The notes beneath the pieces are model-generated. The model had not been told where the DNA came from. It saw only the letters and a list, made by a program, of their open reading frames with translations, and did not search any database. DNA of 64,000 nucleotides from contig NZ_JQMP01000003.1 of the NCBI RefSeq assembly GCF_000744775.1, positions 372,001-436,000 on the forward strand, given 5' to 3'. Position numbers and translations under genes: made by a program. This stretch comes from Thermorudis peleae. Lineage in GTDB: Bacteria; Chloroflexota; Chloroflexia; Thermomicrobiales; Thermomicrobiaceae. Position 1 is the first letter of the stretch, and every line of letters begins with the position of its first letter. Shown here piece by piece: positions 7,315 through 17,509 of this stretch.

Positions 7315-8388
7315 GTGGAATTCTGCCTCGACTTATCGTATCGACGGTGGGTCTCGGCACCAGATGCCGAGACGGGTGTTGCTTTCACACTCCAAACCAT
7401 CGCTGCGGCAGATCGTGCCGGCCTTCACTCGGTTTGGCTCAGTGAAGATCCAGATGGGTGGGATGCCTTTGCTGTCCTGGGTGCTGCTGCTCGCCAGACC
7501 GAACGCATTCGCCTGGGGCCTGGCGTGACGAGCCCGTCACTGCGTCATCCTGTACTCATGGCGATGTCAGTCACAACGCTCGACTGGCTTTCTGGTGGCC
7601 GCGCGTTCCTCGGTCTTGGGCGTGGGCAACCGGAATGGTATGACCGTGGACTCGGCATGCCGGTTTCTCGGCCGCTCGCAGCGCTCGAGGAGACAATCCA
7701 GCTCTTGCGCCAATGGTGGCAACCACCCCATGTTGCGCATGGAACTGGCGAGCGATTCCCTGTCCAGAGTTGGGCGTTGGGCTTTGGTCCGTTGCAACCA
7801 GCTGTCCCGATCTATCTCGCAGCCATTGGCCCAAAGGCTGTGGCCTTGGCCGCCCGGCTTGCTGACGGACTCCTCACACCCGATTTCATCAGCGAAACCT
7901 ACCTTGAGCAGACATTACTCCCAGCGCTCCATGCCGAATTGTGCGCTCACGGACGTGATCCTGCTCAGTTTCCGGTCTTCCTTCGCACGGCAATTACCAT
8001 TACCAACGATCCAGAGCCAGTACTCGCCCAACGCAAGCGCATGTTCGCCCTGCTCGCCACGCTGCCCGGAATGGATCGCGGTCTTGTCGTCCCAGGCTAT
8101 GATGTGCCCGCACTCATCGCCCAGCTTCGACGGGTGATGCGCACAGAAGAAGCATTAGCGCGCGGCAGCGGCTTCGTGACCTATCGCAAGCTGGCTGACT
8201 TCACCGCTGCCGAGCGCCTTATTCCCACTGACTTTATCGCCCAGCTTAGCTACGTCGGCACAGTGTCCGAGATCCGGTCACGTCTTGCTCGGCTTGCTGC
8301 CCTCGGTGTGACGCATGTCTTCCTCTCAGCACTTGCTGAGCCCGATCCTGCAGCCTATGCCGAGCTCACGGCTGCACTTCAGCCGTAG
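7315..8388 (+). CDS. LLM class (luciferase-like, F420/FMN-dependent) oxidoreductase
   Basis: A 357-residue bacterial luciferase-fold oxidoreductase. Typical features are the N-terminal 'AADRAGLHSVWLSEDP', 'TERIRLGPGVTSPSLRHPVLMA', 'TLDWLSGGRAFLGLGRG' and 'PVPIYLAAIGPKAVALAARLADGLL'-like text in the middle. Methylenetetrahydromethanopterin-reductase-like members use F420. Starts with GTG 8 bases after the amidase, so likely the same operon. The last 23 bases overlap the convergent glycosyltransferase gene. Substrate unknown. Confidence 0.87.
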   Translation: MEFCLDLSYRRWVSAPDAETGVAFTLQTIAAADRAGLHSVWLSEDPDGWDAFAVLGAAARQTERIRLGPGVTSPSLRHPVLMAMSVTTLDWLSGGRAFLGLGRGQPEWYDRGLGMPVSRPLAALEETIQLLRQWWQPPHVAHGTGERFPVQSWALGFGPLQPAVPIYLAAIGPKAVALAARLADGLLTPDFISETYLEQTLLPALHAELCAHGRDPAQFPVFLRTAITITNDPEPVLAQRKRMFALLATLPGMDRGLVVPGYDVPALIAQLRRVMRTEEALARGSGFVTYRKLADFTAAERLIPTDFIAQLSYVGTVSEIRSRLARLAALGVTHVFLSALAEPDPAAYAELTAALQP

Positions 8389-9565: not shown

Positions 9566-10036
9566 GCCAATCCCTCCCGTGTCCTGTCGTGCCGATCCCG
9601 TCAGGACGAGCCTGACGCCCGCCACGATCAGGTGGCGCACGCTCGCCAAGATCGGCTCCGTTGTAACCCCACACAAAAGATACGCGATTGCGCCATCTTG
9701 TGTCAAGGTAACTGCTTGTCGTTGTGAATAACCGGTGAAGGGCATGATTGGCTGCCGTACCACCTGGAAGAAGCTGGCCCTGAGCGGCATGCCATGAGAA
9801 TTGCGTGAGAAGCGATACAGAAGGGGACAGCGCAAAAGTATGCAATGATCATGAGCCCTGATGGAGGGGGTATATAGACGAAAGTACCATTCCTGATCAG
9901 TCAGTTGGGGTGATACATTACGTAATGCCAAGTGACTAGTAGGATTCATGGAATGTTATGACAAATGGGAGGTAGTCAACGATTGGAGGACGGACCTGAG
10001 CCGTAAGCGTCGTCCGGGATGAGGGAGGGATTCGGC
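9566..10036. other. intergenic region between divergent glycosyltransferase and response regulator genes
   Basis: No gene seen in 471 bases. It holds the glycosyltransferase promoter and leader hairpin, and near the response regulator a perfect 12-base palindrome CATTACGTAATG at 9916-9927 that could be an operator. No convincing plus-strand -35/-10 pair was found for the response regulator. Confidence 0.6.
9677..9706 (-). promoter_or_regulatory. sigma70-type promoter for the glycosyltransferase
   Basis: On the minus strand TTGACA (9706-9701), an 18-base spacer and TATCTT (9682-9677). The untranslated leader to the ATG at 9565 is about 100 bases and contains a perfect 7-bp hairpin (9599-9617, CGTCAGG/CCTGACG). 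Confidence 0.6.
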
Positions 10037-10762
10037 ATGGACGTGCTCCTCGTCAACTCTGACCCAATGATGACCAAAATGGTGCGGTTCTTGCTGGAAG
10101 ATCGCGGCTATCGCTGTCGCACGGCGACGCCGTCGCAAGCGCTTGCACAGGCTTTCGGCGGAGAAGTCGATGCGATCTTGCTCGAAATTCTGCTGCATGA
10201 GGGTGATGGCTTTGCTCTCTGCGAAGCGCTGCGTGCTCGCGGCTATCGCGGAGCCATTGTATTCCTTTCGCGGCGTCAGGATTTGGCTGATCGTTTGCGG
10301 GCGTTTGAAGCTGGAGCTGACGATTTCGTCGGCTGGCCAGCTGAACCAGCTGAACTCCTTGCGCGCTTGGAAGTAGCAGTGCGCCGTGCCAAGGCGTTTG
10401 ATGCCCAGCCCCTTGGCACTCGCGTCATCGTCGGAGACTTTACCCTCGATCTCAGCGCTGGTACCCTCGTGATGCCTGGCAAACCAGCCATCCGCTTAAC
10501 TCCGGTTGAGTTGCGCCTGCTTGAGTGTCTCATGCGGAACGCGGGCCTCACTCTACGCCGTGAAACGCTGATTGAGCGCGTCTGGGGATACGACTACGGC
10601 GGAGATAACCGGCTCGAAGTCTACATTCGCCGACTCCGCCGGAAGATCGAGCCTGATCCCGATCACCCATGCTATCTGCGAACAGTCCGGGGAATCGGCT
10701 ATGTCTTTGGTCCGCGTGTCGGCACAAGCCGCCTTGACCGCGCAGCATTTACGGTCCGCTAA
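10037..10762 (+). CDS. OmpR/PhoB-type response regulator with degenerate receiver
   Basis: A 241-residue protein: receiver domain (about 1-115) and winged-helix DNA-binding domain (about 135-230, with 'LTPVELRLLECLMRNAG', 'VWGYDYGGDNRLEVYIRRLRRKIE' and 'TVRGIGYVF'). The phosphoacceptor aspartate is replaced by Glu50 ('AILLEILLHEGDGF'), the conserved lysine by Trp100 ('DDFVGWP') and the N-terminal acidic pair is reduced to 'VNSD'. Such receivers usually work without phosphorylation or mimic the active state. No histidine kinase is adjacent. The ATG at 10037 has GGGAGGG upstream; an earlier ATG at 10019 would place that site inside the gene. It converges with, and overlaps by 14 bases, the M50 protease gene. 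Confidence 0.88.
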   Translation: MDVLLVNSDPMMTKMVRFLLEDRGYRCRTATPSQALAQAFGGEVDAILLEILLHEGDGFALCEALRARGYRGAIVFLSRRQDLADRLRAFEAGADDFVGWPAEPAELLARLEVAVRRAKAFDAQPLGTRVIVGDFTLDLSAGTLVMPGKPAIRLTPVELRLLECLMRNAGLTLRRETLIERVWGYDYGGDNRLEVYIRRLRRKIEPDPDHPCYLRTVRGIGYVFGPRVGTSRLDRAAFTVR

Positions 10763-13412
10763 TGGTCACTCGCTGGGAACAGGTGACTGACTGCTTGGCT
10801 GTTGTCGCTGTATCCTTCCCGCCTTGCTGTACCGCATTGACCTGCTGACTGCTGGTCGCTGAAACCGCGCCATCGTTCGACTGAACGCTGTGCGCTTGCT
10901 GACAGGTTGCTGTTGACGTCCCCTCACCAGACGACGTCACCACAACGGTTGCAACGACGGTCACCCGTGGCGATGGTGCGGTTGTTGCTGGCGGAGCAGA
11001 GGGCGTGCCTTCTCCTTGCTGAACTGAGGGATTTTGCGGCTGGGGAGATGGCGTTCCACTATAGCGCCACAGGTAGTAGTGCTGTCCAATATTCCCCATC
11101 TCTACTTGCCATCCAGCTGAGTTATCCGGCGTATACGTGAGGCAACGCCGCTCGAAGCACTGGAGAAGGACGTCGTGTGGATGCCCGGCCACGAGCACCT
11201 GGGTCCAGTAGGCTTCGGTAATTGGCAGGCCAGTAACATAGAAGGGTGGGGAGAAGAGTGGCGCGGTATGCAACCCGTCGGGGTCGGCAACGATATCCTG
11301 TGCTTGCAGCATGCCCCAGAAAACGGATGCGATGCTGTGACCAGTCTCAGGTGCCAGGTAGGCCGCGGTAACGTGATAGCGGGCGAGTGCTGGGTCATTC
11401 GTTACTGAACCGTCGCGATGAAGAACGCTCGTCAGCACTGTGCCAACGGAGGCCGGTGGTGCCTGAAGCAGCCCAGCAAGACTGGCATAGGTCGGCGCGT
11501 TTGGATCGTCCAGGTCGCCCGCAACAGGAATCTGGGCCGGCGCGCGCGGTTCAAACGTTGTATTGCCCGTCTGGAGTTGACCAGTAATTAACTCTTTGGC
11601 TAACAGGCCGGTCGTGACGTACCACGCATCAGCGGCTTGCTCGCTGGGATGGGTAACCTCCATGCGTGCTTTGTCAAAGTACAGCACGAGGCGCTGGCCT
11701 CCTGGTGCGTCGGTATATGCTTCGAGCAGGAGTGCTGTCCGCGGAGCTGGCCCCCATACCCAGCTGCGTTGCACCATTCCTTGTTGCACGGGCTGGTCAA
11801 AGCGAGCCCAGGTAGCAGTCAACGCTGTGATTGCGTGCTGGAGTTGATCTGGGGGCAGGGCCTGTGCTACCTGGGATGATGAGGTGATCGTTGTCGCTGG
11901 TTCAGATGCGGCCTGGCTGCCAAAACGGTCAGCAACCGGCAGGAACATTCCACCAGCGCCAACGAGTACAACAATGGCCAGGAATACGGCGACAACCAGG
12001 GGGTGCCGTGCTTGCCGGAGGGAAGGCCGCGCGCGGAGTCGAGACACGAGGTGGCGTCCGAGGCGCACCGTCGCAATCGAAAGCGCGAGAGCCATCCGTG
12101 CAACTGTCCGCACAAAGAGCCCAAGCCCGAGGACCATGATGAACCAGAAGAGCAGTTGCAGGCTCACGGCCGCGAGCAAAACGGGATCAGTCCGCCAGGC
12201 GGTCAGCCAAGCGCGGAACAGCGCTCGCCCTTCCCACCAGAGCAAGGTGACAACCTCTTTACCATAGAACGTGCCTAAGAAGAATGGATAGATCAGAAAG
12301 TAAGCCACGAGCACCAGGTAAGCTATGAACAAAAGGCGTGGCAGTGGACGCATGCGAGGCAATTGCTTCTTCCGTCCGCGCGGCCACGGCCAAAGGTCAC
12401 GAAGGAATGGCCCAACAAGGGCGAGTGGATCTGGCACACCGAGGAGATCGGCGATTGCATAGTAGCCGTCAAAGCGCAGAAACGGGGTGAACTGGCGCAT
12501 ATAGTGTAAGTCAATTGAAACAATCCCCAGCAACCAGAACGGCCAACCCGTAAGCTGGTAGAGCATGGCGTAGCCAAGGATAAGGAAGAGCTGAAAGTAC
12601 ATACCCCCCAAATCGACCCGTAGGCGCTGCAGCCGGTTGAGCCGGTAAACATCCGTGACGTCAGTGTAGAAGGCTGGCCAGATCAGGTAAATTGCCACCC
12701 CAATCGGCCCATGACGGCAACCACCCCGCCGCATTGCAGCAGCGTGCCCAAGCTCGTGGAAGAACGATGACCCAATTTCCATACCGAATAACACCAGAAC
12801 AAGCGCTGGGTCGCGCAAGAGTGTCTGTGCGCCAACAAGCAATGCTGGTGAGCGATAGAGCCAAATGTGCACCCCGATCGCAAGCAGGACAGTGAGAACA
12901 ATGAGCGGCGGCCAGTAGAGGTGCTGCAAGATTCCGGTAATGGGCGCGATGGTCTCGTACGATATCAGCGGCACGCGAGCACGCAGTCCCAGTGCTTGCT
13001 CGCGCGTGCGAGGGGCTGCTGAGGTCGGGTTCCCTCGCGTTTCACCATGCGTGGAACCTGACGCCGCAGATGCCGGTACAGGGATCGCCAGCATGCCTGC
13101 CGGAATGAGTCGATTCGTAACCAGCCACCGGATATCGTCAGCCGAAAGCGGTCGGCCGCACTGCTGGCTCACCTGCGCAGCAATGATCGCTGCAGGGGTC
13201 TTACCATCTGCCGCGGCTAAAACATGATAGAGCAGTGGCGTAACCTCATGATATTGTCCGTTGACGCAGATCAACCATCGCTCTTCTGCGAACGCGGTGT
13301 CTGGCATTCGCCCATGGAGCTCGACGTTAGGGCGACGCTTGGGTCGCTCAACCCATGGAGGTACAGCGTGTGCACCCGGTGACGGAGTCAGTGGTTGCAA
13401 TTCAATCATCAT
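10749..13412 (-). CDS. M50 (site-2 protease-like) membrane metalloprotease with N-terminal PqqD-like domain and extracellular C-terminal tail
   Basis: An 887-residue protein. Residues about 43-108 ('ERWLICVNGQYHEVTPLLYHVL...IRWLVTNRLIPAGML') look like a PqqD-type winged domain, the fold that binds leader peptides in RiPP pathways. A multi-helix membrane domain follows with the zinc motif HELGH at about 219-223 and a downstream 'FLRFDGYYAIADLLG' aspartate segment, as in M50 'putative peptide zinc metalloproteases'. After the last helix ('AVFLAIVVLVGAGGMFLPVADRF') comes a large extracellular part with a 'CFERRCLTYTPDNSAGWQVE' module seen in other Chloroflexota surface proteins, a Pro/Thr linker and a Ser/Thr/Gln-rich tail. 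ATG 13412 is preceded by GGAGGGG. It lies downstream of two small peptide genes. Confidence 0.85.
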   Translation of the reverse strand: MMIELQPLTPSPGAHAVPPWVERPKRRPNVELHGRMPDTAFAEERWLICVNGQYHEVTPLLYHVLAAADGKTPAAIIAAQVSQQCGRPLSADDIRWLVTNRLIPAGMLAIPVPASAASGSTHGETRGNPTSAAPRTREQALGLRARVPLISYETIAPITGILQHLYWPPLIVLTVLLAIGVHIWLYRSPALLVGAQTLLRDPALVLVLFGMEIGSSFFHELGHAAAMRRGGCRHGPIGVAIYLIWPAFYTDVTDVYRLNRLQRLRVDLGGMYFQLFLILGYAMLYQLTGWPFWLLGIVSIDLHYMRQFTPFLRFDGYYAIADLLGVPDPLALVGPFLRDLWPWPRGRKKQLPRMRPLPRLLFIAYLVLVAYFLIYPFFLGTFYGKEVVTLLWWEGRALFRAWLTAWRTDPVLLAAVSLQLLFWFIMVLGLGLFVRTVARMALALSIATVRLGRHLVSRLRARPSLRQARHPLVVAVFLAIVVLVGAGGMFLPVADRFGSQAASEPATTITSSSQVAQALPPDQLQHAITALTATWARFDQPVQQGMVQRSWVWGPAPRTALLLEAYTDAPGGQRLVLYFDKARMEVTHPSEQAADAWYVTTGLLAKELITGQLQTGNTTFEPRAPAQIPVAGDLDDPNAPTYASLAGLLQAPPASVGTVLTSVLHRDGSVTNDPALARYHVTAAYLAPETGHSIASVFWGMLQAQDIVADPDGLHTAPLFSPPFYVTGLPITEAYWTQVLVAGHPHDVLLQCFERRCLTYTPDNSAGWQVEMGNIGQHYYLWRYSGTPSPQPQNPSVQQGEGTPSAPPATTAPSPRVTVVATVVVTSSGEGTSTATCQQAHSVQSNDGAVSATSSQQVNAVQQGGKDTATTAKQSVTCSQRVTISGP

Positions 13413-13471
13413 GACCGAGACCCCTCCTTCGCTCGTACGTTGCTCCCCCACGGTCAGGAAGCGAAATGATT

Positions 13472-13510
13472 GAGCCGGCCATCGGTGGGGGATGGTCACC
13501 TGGCCGGCTC
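13472..13510 (-). terminator. hairpin between the peptide genes and the M50 gene (attenuator-like)
   Basis: Perfect 10-bp inverted repeat GAGCCGGCCA (13472-13481) / TGGCCGGCTC (13501-13510) with a 19-base loop. On the transcribed minus strand it follows the 78-residue peptide gene and precedes the M50 gene; no strong T-run follows, so partial termination or RNA processing is more likely than full stop. Confidence 0.5.
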
Positions 13511-13582
13511 ACGACAGGGGAAAGGGATGAAGGAAGCAACGCCACGAAACTGAGCGGCCAGTGGCCCCGGTGGTGCGGTACG

Positions 13583-13819
13583 TTAGTGGGAGCGTGGTCC
13601 GTTGGCCAAACCATGCATGACCAAGATCTGATTAATCACCGCAATGTTGAGTTGGACCACGATGGTGGGGCAGCCCGCAAAGCAGCGATTGCCTCCTGCC
13701 AGTGCCCAGTTGCTGCCTCCAATTTGGCCCCAGTTGGTACCGCCCAGGGCGAGTGGGCCGGTCTCAAGGCGATCGGGTAAGGGGCGGATTGTTTCTGCCG
13801 CTAAGAAAGACGGTTCCAT
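13583..13819 (-). CDS. small Gly/Asn-rich peptide, candidate substrate of the M50/PqqD protein
   Basis: A 78-residue frame beginning 'MEPSFLAAETIRPLPDRLETGPLALGG' split here as a charged leader-like part (about 1-24) and a core-like part rich in Gly, Asn, Trp and Ala with a near-repeat 'GGTNWGQI'/'GGSNWALA', a Cys pair ('RCFAGC') and a hydrophobic stretch ('IVVQLNIAVINQILV'). ATG at 13819 with GGAGAG about 9-14 bases upstream. No known family recognised. It sits between a second small gene and a PqqD-domain M50 protease on the same strand, the arrangement expected of a peptide precursor, which is inference. Confidence 0.55.
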   Translation of the reverse strand: MEPSFLAAETIRPLPDRLETGPLALGGTNWGQIGGSNWALAGGNRCFAGCPTIVVQLNIAVINQILVMHGLANGPRSH

Positions 13820-13881
13820 GGCCCCAACTCTCCATTCGTTTTCATACGTCCGCTCTAGTCGCTACCTGCTGAGGTGGCGAG

Positions 13882-13978
13882 CCGGCTGCCCTCACCGGGA
13901 CGGATATCGGGCAGCCGGTCTCTCGCGAACCAGGCTTAGCCTGGAGACCGCGCATGGTGTAGCACGGGCTAAGCCTGG
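13882..13978 (-). repeat. cluster of strong inverted repeats between two small peptide genes
   Basis: Three overlapping hairpin-forming pairs in under 100 bases: CCGGCTGCCC (13882-13891)/GGGCAGCCGG (13909-13918); CGGTCTC/GAGACCG around the palindromic CCAGG...CCTGG; and a perfect 12-bp pair CCAGGCTTAGCC (13930-13941)/GGCTAAGCCTGG (13967-13978). The second and third use shared bases and are mutually exclusive, as in attenuators. No T-run follows on the minus strand. Confidence 0.65.
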
Positions 13979-13993
13979 CGTCTTAGGTCCCTA

Positions 13994-14257
13994 CTACAGG
14001 CGCACCGAGACCTTAAAGTTCTGGCAGACCTTGGCCCAGTTGCTTTGGGTCACGCTATGGCCAGCACCGGCCATGCCGCCGTTTCCATTCCCAACGTTAA
14101 CCAGACCAAGCGTCGGCCCGCCATTGGCGTTCGCCGTGCTATCGCCACGTGTGGTCGCTGAATTCGACTGATCCACGCCAGCATAGTTGCCAATGATCGT
14201 GTCCGTCTCATACCGCGCCGGCAGTTCGGCAATCAGCTCACGCTCGAGGTCGTACAT
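13994..14257 (-). CDS. small Asn/Gly/Ser/Thr-rich peptide, candidate precursor or secreted structural peptide
   Basis: An 87-residue protein with an acidic, helical start ('MYDLERELIAELPARYETD', residues 1-19) and a low-complexity body of alternating small and amide residues (with 'NANGG', 'VNVGNGNGG', 'TQSNW') ending in 'VCQNFKVSVRL'. The ribosome site GGAAAGGAGG is close to ideal, which suggests high expression; the frame is open 45 codons upstream but the extension overlaps the operator region. The leader/core look and the neighbouring PqqD-domain M50 protease suggest a processed or exported peptide. No family recognised. Confidence 0.65.
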   Translation of the reverse strand: MYDLERELIAELPARYETDTIIGNYAGVDQSNSATTRGDSTANANGGPTLGLVNVGNGNGGMAGAGHSVTQSNWAKVCQNFKVSVRL

Positions 14258-14307: not shown

Positions 14308-14333
14308 CACTGGTGAGAGCGCTCTCACTAGTG
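14308..14333. promoter_or_regulatory. 26-base near-perfect palindrome, LacI-type operator candidate
   Basis: The arms CACTGGTGAGAGC and GCTCTCACTAGTG pair with one mismatch; the central 16 bases GTGAGAGCGCTCTCAC are perfectly palindromic. The AGAGCGCTCT centre resembles operators of LacI-family sugar regulators (CelR/CebR class). It lies 51 bases upstream of the 87-residue peptide start. No LacI gene is in the window. Confidence 0.6.
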
Positions 14334-14350
14334 TTGAGTGTAAGGGGCAA

Positions 14351-14483
14351 AGCTGACAATTCCCCGATAGAGCAAGCGGGATAAGCTGACAACTGGCTCA
14401 GTCATTTCCATCAACGTTGTGCCGTCTGGACAAGGAAAGCTGGCTTGGCAAGGGAACCGGTGCGAACCTGACAATCCTGTCAG
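14351..14483. repeat. three AGCTGACA-type repeats upstream of the peptide genes
   Basis: AGCTGACAA occurs at 14351-14359 and again at 14384-14392, exactly 33 bases apart (three helical turns of 11). A palindromic version, CTGACA-atcc-TGTCAG, is at 14468-14483, overlapping the end of the SARP-type gene. Direct heptamer repeats at multiples of 11 are the usual binding pattern of SARP regulators. Confidence 0.45.
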
Positions 14484-17400
14484 CTTGCCAGTGCAGTGTG
14501 CAGGTCGCTCAGAAGATGCTCCAGTGGCAGCGAGTGGCCAACCAGCCAGAGCGCATCGCGTTCCGCCTCCGGGAGCGGAGCCTGGGCAAGAGCGCGTTGC
14601 ACTTCGTCCTGCTCAAACCAGAGAGGCGGCGAACCAAGCTCTTGCTGCAAGGCATCCATCGCTGCTGCAGCCCGCCATGCGTCCTGTGGCTGGCCTGCTG
14701 CGGCAAAGAAAAGGGTAAGCGTCGTCAGGGTGAGTGCCAGCTCGCGCCGGAATCGCTGTGCTTGACACAGCGTCAGCGCTTCACTCAAGGCGTGCCGCGC
14801 TGCCGACAAGTTGCCGTCATGGATGTGCAGACGGGGAAGGAGCAACAGAGCAAGCACAACGGCACGTGAAGGACCAGCGAGTCGTGCTTGGGCAAGCGCA
14901 GCATCAGCAAAGACGCGTGCCGCCCCAAATGCTCCTCCCAAATAGCTCAGAAAGCCTTGCTTGACCAACACCTGTGCTGGCTCTCCAGGATCAGTTGACG
15001 CTTTGTGAAAATGTGCCAGCGCATCACGGTAGTAGGCCGCCGCTCCCTGGAGATCACGGGTCGCGAGCGCGACATCGCCTAAGACATGCAGGCAGAGTGC
15101 GATGTCACGTGGATCTTGGAGTTCCCGCCGGAGCGTCAGTGCTTGGTGATAAAGGTCCTGGGCGGTAGTGTAGTCCCCACGGGCAAACGCAACGAGTCCA
15201 AGCTGGAAGATCGTATCGGCGAGGTGCTCGCGTTCCTGCAACGCTTGGAAACAGCCAAGGGCATCAGCGAGCGATGCAGCGGCGTCATCGTAGTCACCTT
15301 GGATGAAGGCAAGCCGACCGGCAACGAACTTCAAAATTGCAGCAGGCAAGGTTCCTGGTTGAACATCAGGCCGCTGGAGGCACGCGGCAATCCAGCGTCG
15401 GCCTTCGCTCGTCGCCTGGCTGGACCAGAACGACCAAAGCCCCCAGGCAAAGGCAGCAAGTTGATCGGGATCACCATGCTCAAGCAGCCATTGCGCAGCA
15501 CGGCGCAAGTCCGGCAGTGCACGCGTGAGTCGCGCGATCCAGTCTGGCTGCTCTGGGCCCCGAAGCTGACTCTGCGTAGCCAGCGCAATGTACTGCGCGG
15601 CATGGCGTGCGTTAACTTCCTCAGCCCGCGGTGAACGAGCCAGCACAGCTGCCGCATATTGCCGCACCGGATCGAGCAGGCGGTAGTGAGCAATGTTGTC
15701 TTGCCATTCGACAACAAGCAGTGATTTCCGGGCAAGCACATCAAGCAGATCAAGCGCTTCAGCTGGATCAATCGCGGCAACGGCAGCAATGTCGTCGAGT
15801 GTGAAATTGCCGGCAAATACTGAAAGCACAGCAAAGAGCTCTTGCTGTGCTGGGCTCAGCAGTTGATAGCTCCACTCAAGCGCAGCGTGAAGGGCTTGAT
15901 GCCGTGGAGAGCGTGTCTCGGCGCTGGACTGGAGTAAGCGCAGAAGATTGTCCAGCCGACTCGCAACTTGCTGCACCGACAGGACGTTCAGTCGTCCGGC
16001 AATGAGTTCGATGGCGAGTGGCATGCCTTCAAGCCGGGCGCAGATTATGGCAAGAGCCTGAGCTGTCTGCTCATCGATGAGCAGCGATGGCTGCTCAGCA
16101 CGCGCTCGGGCGAGGAACAGCTGAACAGCCGGGAACGCGGCAAGAGCCTCTGGCGTAAGCGGTTGTGTCGGATCGGGAAATGGTAGTGGGCGCACAGCAT
16201 AGACGTGCTCGCCAAACGCCTGGAGGGGTTCCCGGCTGGTCGCCAGAATCCTGAGCCGTGGACAGGCTGTAAGGAGGTGCGTGACGAGCCGAGAGCACGC
16301 TTCACGTAGATGCTCACAGGTGTCGAGAATCAACATCATGTCATGCGCCGCTAATGCATGGGCCAGCGTTGCCTCCGGTGACTGCCCTGTGTGCCCAGAT
16401 ACAGCCAGCTCTGATACTTCAAGTGCCGTCAGGAGCACATTCGGGAGGAGCGCAGGATCCTCTAAGCCCGATAAATCAACGAACCATACCCCACTGGAAA
16501 ACCGCGGAAGCACGTTGTTGCCCACTGCAAACGCCAGCCGTGTTTTGCCGATCCCACCAGGTCCAGTGAGTGTAATGAGTCGCGTTGTCTCGAGCGCTCG
16601 GGAGACCGCAACGATATCCTCATCGCGACCAATAACTGGAGGGAGCGCAGGTGGCAAATTTGTGCGCGGTGTGCCCATACGCTCTCCTGGTTGGGGAGCG
16701 GCCGGCGGTGGGATGGATGACGCGTGCATTTGGCCCGCGGCGATAGCGGTGTACAGCGCATGGCTGGTCGGCAAAGGATCCGTGTCGAGTTCTTGCCGCA
16801 GGATCTCGCGGAGTTGCTGGTACTGACGGAGGGCGAGATGACGAGAGCCCGTGCGGGCATAAAGCCGCATTAACGCGACATGGGCATCTTCGTCTGCTGG
16901 ATCATGGGCAATCACGCGGCGGAGCGTCGTGAGCGCCAGGGTAATCTCTCCGCGCTCCTCGTAAACCCGAGCTAGTGTACGGAGCAGCAGTCCATAGCGT
17001 TCACGGAGGCGGAAACGGTCTGCAATCAGCCAGTTGCCATCCATGTCAGCGAGCAAGTCGCCAGTGTACCAGGATGCAGCTGCTTCGAGTAAGGCTGGTT
17101 CTTTGGCAGCAAGCGCAGCATCGGCAGCAGATTCAAAAGCGTGAACGTCGAGCCAGATGCCGTCTGGACTCCGCAGTTCGATCCAGGGGCCACTGGTAAA
17201 GAGATAGCGTGAAGGGGAATAGGGAGGAAGGCGTGGCTCGAGAGCACGCCGAGCCGCATGGAGCGCTTTATTCAACCGGTTCAACGCAGCATCTGGATCA
17301 TCCTCGGGCCAGAGCGCTTCGCAAACTTGTTCCCGACGCAGACGAAATCGCCTGCTGAGTGCCAGACAGGCGAGTACAGCCCCTGCCCATGCCTGTCGAA

Positions 17401-17509
17401 GGGCTTCTGGCGTAACGTCATACTCGCCAGCTTTGATCCGTAACTCGCCGAGAAGCCAAATTCGGAGCATCCCAGGGGTCTGCGGGTGTGCCAGGTCGCT
17501 TGCTTGCAT
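14480..17509 (-). CDS. AfsR/SARP-type transcriptional regulator with BTAD, NB-ARC-like ATPase and TPR domains
   Basis: A 1009-residue regulator. Residues about 14-110 form an OmpR-like DNA-binding domain ('MLRIWLLGELRIKAG...LCEALWPEDDPDAALNRLNKALHAARRAL'), about 120-255 a bacterial transcriptional activation domain ('YTGDLLADMDGNWL', 'RLYARTGSRHLALRQYQQLREIL'), then an NTPase with P-loop 'TGPGGIGKTRLA' (about 319) and Walker B 'MMLILDTCEHL', and a long C-terminal array of TPR-like helices. Large proteins of this layout control secondary-metabolite or peptide clusters. It lies directly upstream of the two small peptide genes on the same strand, 222 bases away. ATG 17509 or the inner ATG 17470 may start it. 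Confidence 0.88.
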   Translation of the reverse strand: MQASDLAHPQTPGMLRIWLLGELRIKAGEYDVTPEALRQAWAGAVLACLALSRRFRLRREQVCEALWPEDDPDAALNRLNKALHAARRALEPRLPPYSPSRYLFTSGPWIELRSPDGIWLDVHAFESAADAALAAKEPALLEAAASWYTGDLLADMDGNWLIADRFRLRERYGLLLRTLARVYEERGEITLALTTLRRVIAHDPADEDAHVALMRLYARTGSRHLALRQYQQLREILRQELDTDPLPTSHALYTAIAAGQMHASSIPPPAAPQPGERMGTPRTNLPPALPPVIGRDEDIVAVSRALETTRLITLTGPGGIGKTRLAFAVGNNVLPRFSSGVWFVDLSGLEDPALLPNVLLTALEVSELAVSGHTGQSPEATLAHALAAHDMMLILDTCEHLREACSRLVTHLLTACPRLRILATSREPLQAFGEHVYAVRPLPFPDPTQPLTPEALAAFPAVQLFLARARAEQPSLLIDEQTAQALAIICARLEGMPLAIELIAGRLNVLSVQQVASRLDNLLRLLQSSAETRSPRHQALHAALEWSYQLLSPAQQELFAVLSVFAGNFTLDDIAAVAAIDPAEALDLLDVLARKSLLVVEWQDNIAHYRLLDPVRQYAAAVLARSPRAEEVNARHAAQYIALATQSQLRGPEQPDWIARLTRALPDLRRAAQWLLEHGDPDQLAAFAWGLWSFWSSQATSEGRRWIAACLQRPDVQPGTLPAAILKFVAGRLAFIQGDYDDAAASLADALGCFQALQEREHLADTIFQLGLVAFARGDYTTAQDLYHQALTLRRELQDPRDIALCLHVLGDVALATRDLQGAAAYYRDALAHFHKASTDPGEPAQVLVKQGFLSYLGGAFGAARVFADAALAQARLAGPSRAVVLALLLLPRLHIHDGNLSAARHALSEALTLCQAQRFRRELALTLTTLTLFFAAAGQPQDAWRAAAAMDALQQELGSPPLWFEQDEVQRALAQAPLPEAERDALWLVGHSLPLEHLLSDLHTALAS

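Follow-up and report, generated by a model that had tools for sequence, protein, structure and literature searches.

A minimal peptide cassette in Thermorudis peleae and other Chloroflexota: leader-bearing precursors beside a site-2 protease with a putative RRE domain and no conserved modifying enzyme

Introduction

The presence of a RiPP recognition element (RRE) domain, where RiPP stands for ribosomally synthesized and post-translationally modified peptide, is taken as a sign of a peptide-modifying pathway. A 64,000-nucleotide stretch of the Thermorudis peleae genome (contig NZ_JQMP01000003.1, positions 372,001 to 436,000; hereafter, the window) carries two small peptide genes, A and B, ahead of a gene for an M50 membrane protease that begins with an RRE-like domain, which raises the question of how such a locus would mature its peptides when no modifying enzyme is seen beside it. 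The explanation that we favor, with moderate confidence, is a minimal leader-guided peptide maturation cassette that consists of the precursors and an RRE-fused site-2 protease and has no dedicated modifying enzyme.

Results

Precursor peptides and their leader signature

Peptide A (87 amino acids, 13994-14257, minus strand, AAAGGAGG) is made up of a leader ending in ..LERELIAELPAR, a Gly/Asn core, the stretch QSNWAKVCQ and a basic end, while peptide B (78 amino acids, 13583-13819, minus strand, with a weaker Shine-Dalgarno sequence, GGAG) has a leader ending in ..AETIRPLPDR and a core with CFAGC and QLNIAVINQ. Common to both are a leader that ends in LPxR (LPAR at 14213-14224 in A and LPDR at 13769-13780 in B, both on the minus strand), a Gly/Asn region, a QxNxAxxxQ-like stretch and a basic end (..SVRL in A, ..GPRSH in B). 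Homologues of A and B occur in two other genomes of the window's family (G119 and G124), in the same order and ahead of the RRE-protease gene. A and B are homologous to each other: the alignment score of the G119 pair is reached by none of 2,000 shuffles, and the window pair is marginal when taken alone (0.056). Furthermore, a profile of the six peptides (A6) has exactly two matches in each of the genomes G000, G119 and G124 and no match in the remaining 155 of the class, and the nucleotide differences between G119 and G124 by codon position are 13/10/41 for B and 21/11/31 for A. Because of these exclusive matches in three genomes and the third-position-rich substitutions, A and B are real genes and not chance open reading frames.

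Relatives of the protease were gathered with its residues 1-520 from the class (158 genomes) and the phylum (400 genomes); a query with the whole protein mostly returned its promiscuous C-terminal domain, and from that scan only one locus (L074) was useful. Many of the relatives lie on contigs of metagenome-assembled genomes (MAGs). Precursors adjoin the RRE-protease gene in 27 loci, which belong to Chloroflexota and, in the case of L074, to one actinobacterial MAG labeled Frankiales (G504). These loci hold 58 precursors, one to five each, all on the strand of the protease and located 5' of it in all but one locus, with most of the genes ending no more than about 100 bp from the protease frame or overlapping it. 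They have a single leader signature, [ED][LI]ExQxx[EQ]LP[DE]R, and the leader logo of 56 precursors reads [ST]xEE[LI]ExQxx[EQ]-LP[DE]R-ExMSL. Every one of the 56 tallied leaders has LP and R, but since the candidates were partly picked by LPxR, independent support for the leader comes from the residues further upstream (50 leaders have L/I at -8, and 48 have Q/E at -5) and from the position of the genes next to the protease. The first-pass annotation had described A and B as Gly/Asn-rich peptides with charged N termini; peptides with an LPxR-signature leader is the better description, as the cores vary strongly by lineage. Its proposal had hung on the small frames being conserved where the M50 gene is kept, and this is what the recurrence of A and B in two relatives and of precursors at the 27 protease loci shows.

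With respect to the cores, those of the window's family combine Gly/Asn with QxNxAxxxQ (a stretch of this kind is found in A and B of all three species, and the strict form in five of the six peptides), the core NANVAAPINAAVAANVLSDGSxAYANAEQ occurs in tandem copies in many classes, and cores elsewhere are Cys-containing or beta-like. Class-b cores lack Cys, hardly vary from lineage to lineage and come in up to five similar tandem copies. A class-b precursor profile matches 11 of the 400 Chloroflexota genomes, each of which also belongs to the 28 with the protease (P = 2.3e-14), so that precursor and protease co-occur. The distribution is patchy, with the window-type cassette present in 3 of the 21 genomes of the window's family. 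At L074 (4126-4785) and L166 (6035-6907; both as oriented), the precursors are long fused proteins with internal repeats of an 'APIDAAVAANVxS' core.

The strong conservation and tandem copies of the class-b cores are also what speaks for structural surface peptides, that is, an amyloid- or chaplin-like coat for which the cassette would be the secretion route. The QxNxAxxxQ-like stretch of A and B resembles the NxAxxxQ part of curlin repeats, and a class-d core scores 14.9 bits against chaplin ChpA-C (PF03777; cut-off 21). This chaplin match is subthreshold and limited to a single sequence (L149), however, and no Pfam curlin match was obtained. We consider a surface coat a doubtful account of the peptides.

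Architecture of the RRE-fused membrane protease

The protease on which the favored maturation cassette depends (887 amino acids, 10749-13412, minus strand) starts with an ATG at 13412 behind a strong Shine-Dalgarno sequence, AAGGAGG (start and open reading frame inspected), and is built of three parts: a putative RRE/PqqD-like domain at the N terminus, an M50 (site-2) protease in the middle and a secreted-type domain at the C terminus. The membrane protease part (residues about 158-492; 11937-12941, minus strand) was delimited by a hydropathy scan, in which it shows about seven hydrophobic segments, and by conserved columns. It contains the zinc motif HELGH (residues 219-223; 12744-12758, minus strand) and a third zinc ligand, D315, within RFDGYY (12468-12470, minus strand); H219, E220 and H223 of this HExxH motif and the distal D315 are invariant in 23 aligned relatives. 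The best Pfam M50 score among the relatives is 26.0 bits, under the cut-off of 27.2, while the combination that marks a site-2 protease, HExxH with a distal Asp in a polytopic membrane protein, is present.

The putative RRE/PqqD-like domain (residues 25-115; 13068-13340, minus strand) is assigned from AlphaFold models, structural neighbors and weak PqqD profile matches. An AlphaFold model of the N-terminal approximately 90 residues from two sequences has the order beta-beta-beta-alpha-alpha-alpha (pLDDT 78, pTM 0.71), the three strands and three helices by which the approximately 80-residue winged-helix RRE fold is recognized. The same order appears at residues 30-99 in a poor single-sequence model of residues 1-520 (pLDDT 48), which we take as a hint. 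Pfam PqqD (PF05402) is matched weakly by 6 of 18 family members (best E value, 0.0074), and a PDB profile match to PqqD 3g2b has an E value of 0.015, with some unrelated chains ranking higher. VIA-align places the model next to CteB (5wgg, Z 6.5), MibB (5ehk, 6.2), TbiB1 with leader (5.8) and PqqD (5sxy, 5.1), and also a heterocyclase, with winged-helix DNA-binding domains intermixed at similar scores; Foldseek returned nothing at an E value of 0.001 or better. Taken together, this is in line with the PqqD-like, leader-binding N terminus that the first-pass annotation had proposed.

The C-terminal secreted-type domain (residues 524-789; 11046-11843, minus strand), which was missing from that description, belongs to a family that is matched 14 times in the same genome and often elsewhere in Chloroflexia. 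In relatives this end of the protein is a DUF3105 domain (E value of 9e-48 in L115), a low-complexity or Ser/Pro-rich tail, or missing (G119). Because it is replaced or missing in relatives, the domain is accessory, and because about seven hydrophobic segments follow a cytosolic RRE, the C-terminal end would lie outside the cell. We also considered whether the C-terminal tail mimics a peptide core, and rejected this as the alignment score is no better than that of shuffles.

Search for partner enzymes

None of the 10 flanking genes in the window encodes a radical SAM, YcaO or LanC/LanM enzyme or a peptide ABC exporter, in agreement with the earlier remark that no modifying enzyme is seen here. 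Nor does such a gene recur beside the relatives. Clustering of all neighboring proteins returns the protease, the precursors and common families as recurrent, and nothing else, and among 91 neighbors of 26 loci, searched with Pfam and NCBIfam, no Pfam family is found in more than four and no RiPP enzyme recurs among the 25 commonest families. A Cys-motif scan of the neighbors at 27 loci picked out one gene, at L176 (903-1835), as a plausible radical-SAM-like candidate and yielded nothing in the window set. In addition, the neighbors of relatives include no conserved immunity gene or ABC exporter beside the protease. A conserved modifying-enzyme or exporter partner is thus absent from the surroundings of the cassette.

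More distant M50 genes (L117-L119 and L169-L178) were left out of the family, and several of them adjoin radical-SAM-like or other large RiPP-like enzymes, for which no counterpart is found near the RRE-protease family. Two of these loci, L118 (6664-8285) and L119 (7186-7896; both as oriented), encode tandem Cys/Ser-rich precursors with a leader ..AELDLFAEELPERLNN near the distant M50 gene and large enzymes that are probably of RiPP type, and they represent a separate RiPP cluster.

The peptides could still be true RiPPs if the modifying enzymes were encoded elsewhere in the genome and the cassette performed only the last step, leader removal. RRE-proteases usually complete a RiPP pathway (PMC10036551, PMC10885120), and B has the CFAGC cysteines, while Cys, Ser and Thr are present in class-c and class-d cores. 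A Bac_luciferase-family gene of the window (7315-8388) could be counted in the same direction; it lies on the opposite strand to the cassette with two genes in between. Against this, no modifying enzyme recurs beside any of the 26 relatives, and class-b cores, Cys-free and near constant across lineages, are unlike most modified natural products. We regard modification by enzymes encoded elsewhere as unlikely.

Comparison with known systems

The closest likeness of the favored cassette is to daptides, whose protease MpaP (DapP) is an RRE fused to a site-2 protease; leader removal by this intramembrane peptidase has been described as RRE-dependent (PMC10036551). Like daptides, the cassette has an N-terminal RRE-like domain fused to an intramembrane M50 protease, several tandem precursors and an acidic E-L-E-x stretch in the leader, and leader removal is the job proposed for both proteases. 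Daptides are, however, defined by the leader motif ELExMEAP, an invariant C-terminal Thr, the DUF-RRE protein MpaB, an alcohol dehydrogenase, an aminotransferase and a methyltransferase (PMC10036551), whereas the leader here is ELExQ..ELPDR (logo, EELExQxxELPDRExMSL), the peptides have no C-terminal Thr and variable C termini, and enzymes of the MpaB/C/D/M type are absent among the 91 neighbors of the 26 loci and the 10 flanking window genes. The daptide_HExxH model (NF041824), which covers both domains in relatives, gives 67.9 bits for the window protein and 82-110 bits for relatives, below its cut-off of 300; in addition, the cassette is found in Chloroflexota and its proteases carry variable C-terminal domains. 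As leader motif, C-terminal Thr, partner enzymes and NF041824 cut-off all fail, the locus is not a daptide cluster, while by analogy its protease would work like the daptide protease.

Other systems are more remote. The M50 protease EpeP matures the epipeptide and is thought to cut and export it (PMC10885120); the corresponding YydH/EpeP/LiaK model (NF058609) spans the protease part only and gives 27-54 bits with the cassette proteases (cut-off, 225), and epipeptides need a radical SAM epimerase, which is absent beside the cassette. TmcP, an S2P-clan protease (DUF3267) of TMcin, removes a RiPP leader in the membrane (PMC13252029) but belongs to PF11667, has no described RRE, acts on a precursor that is a membrane helix and is accompanied by other dedicated genes. 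In lasso peptide B1/B2 pairs an RRE likewise delivers the leader to a peptidase, which is there a soluble cysteine-type protease working with a cyclase and not an M50 protein. The first-pass suggestion that leader binding and membrane proteolysis are combined in one protein therefore stands as to the two domains, while their fusion is not new, MpaP being a precedent (PMC10036551). For export by the same protein, which the suggestion also included as a possibility, the precedent is a proposal made for EpeP (PMC10885120). Its further suggestion of an undescribed maturation system needs the same division: this kind of protein is known from daptides, and the literature searched, with subscription papers lying outside it, contained no paper describing the stand-alone cassette, its leader signature or its precursor families.

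Neighboring genes and candidate regulatory elements

An AfsR/SARP-type regulator gene (14480-17509, minus strand; BTAD E value of 1.1e-19, plus NB-ARC and TPR) lies 5' of peptide A and is followed in order by A, B and the membrane protease, which agrees in coordinates and domains with the arrangement of two peptide genes and a SARP-type gene first annotated. As clustering of neighboring proteins does not retain it beside the protease in relatives, the SARP gene is a local neighbor outside the module. An OmpR-type response regulator gene (10019-10762, plus strand) is convergent with the protease gene, their 3' ends meeting, and also faces the protease gene in G119 (49% identity). The remaining neighbors are ordinary, comprising an oligopeptide-type ABC importer, a GntR regulator, a glycosyltransferase, a luciferase-like monooxygenase and an amidase.

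A 16-bp palindrome, GTGAGAGCGCTCTCAC (14313-14328, no strand assigned), precedes the start of A by about 55-70 bases and is present as a single copy in the 2.9-Mb genome. It occurs identically, again as a single copy, 5' of A in G119 and G124. Among the other 18 genomes of the family it is found in G123 only, where it sits inside an unrelated, terminator-like hairpin near a tRNA-like sequence with no peptide, and a second cassette at that site was rejected. The palindrome is probably an operator, and its resemblance to LacI-family operators suggests that a LacI-like regulator probably binds it. Three direct repeats, RTTGTCAGSTT, in the interval that separates A from the SARP gene (14350-14475, minus strand; at 14350, 14383 and 14465, with a spacing of 33 and 82) are candidate SARP sites, which we offer as a lead only; they are not seen in relatives. 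The interval between A and B contains two strong, GC-rich stem-loops (13882-13978, minus strand; arms 13882-13891/13909-13918 and 13930-13941/13967-13978; fold z of -3.26, no T run), which may lead to unequal mRNA levels of the two peptides. Scans for sigma-70 promoters and terminators at the locus gave nothing beyond chance, and Rfam has no match there.

Bacterial M50 proteases process peptide pheromones. Together with the SARP gene upstream in the window, the response regulator facing the protease gene in the window and in G119, and the conserved palindrome at the promoter of A, this makes secreted pheromone-like signals, sensed or controlled by the adjacent regulators, an explanation to be weighed. 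The regulators are not conserved beside other lineages, however, and no sensor kinase or importer is constant among the neighbors, and signaling appears improbable. A bacteriocin cassette, to which the hydrophobic and variable nature of several class-c and class-d cores and the service of RRE-proteases to antimicrobial RiPPs (PMC10885120) could point, is weaker still given an almost invariant class-b core and the absence of a conserved immunity or ABC exporter gene.

Discussion

We propose that the locus is a leader-guided maturation cassette that works as follows. The precursors would carry their conserved leader to the N-terminal RRE of the protease itself, which would bind it in the cytosol and present the precursor to the fused site-2 protease. 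Cleavage would take place within or at the membrane, with a cut site that probably follows the LPxR region directly, and would free the C-terminal peptide, most likely outwards. Binding by the fused RRE and cutting by the fused protease are suggested because of the analogy to MpaP, EpeP and TmcP. Since the cassette encodes no modifying enzyme of its own, its product probably carries no modification, or only one made by general means, such as a disulfide in B.

Several observations weigh against this explanation. The RRE call combines weak sequence matches with a fold that is common to winged-helix DNA-binding domains, and no transmembrane helix is obvious in the precursors. Two class-b precursors in G363 (L194, contig C145, 9241-9830) have no RRE-protease within 18 kb, and the protease of this genome is found on other contigs. 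Finally, the G124 contig (L116, contig C101, 5694-7082 as oriented) keeps both peptides and the RRE part without the protease part, the opposite strand beyond the RRE part encoding a glycosyltransferase-like protein; this reflects either misassembly or real loss.

The kind of protein is known from daptides, but the papers searched describe neither the cassette as a stand-alone unit nor its leader signature or its families of precursors. The recurrence of the cassette across Chloroflexota without a conserved modifying enzyme suggests that short peptides are made and released by a route not yet described. More tentatively, and as a speculation that we would not put beyond a possibility, the cassette could be a phylum-wide, two-gene, RRE-dependent route for secreting peptides that are never enzymatically modified and stand outside RiPP chemistry, possibly for an amyloid-like surface coat. 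If the proposed maturation cassette is real, leader recognition would serve cutting and release alone, in a widespread cassette. It would add peptides from thermophilic and uncultured Chloroflexota and would provide an unusually small system in which to study how site-2 proteases accept leader-bound substrates.

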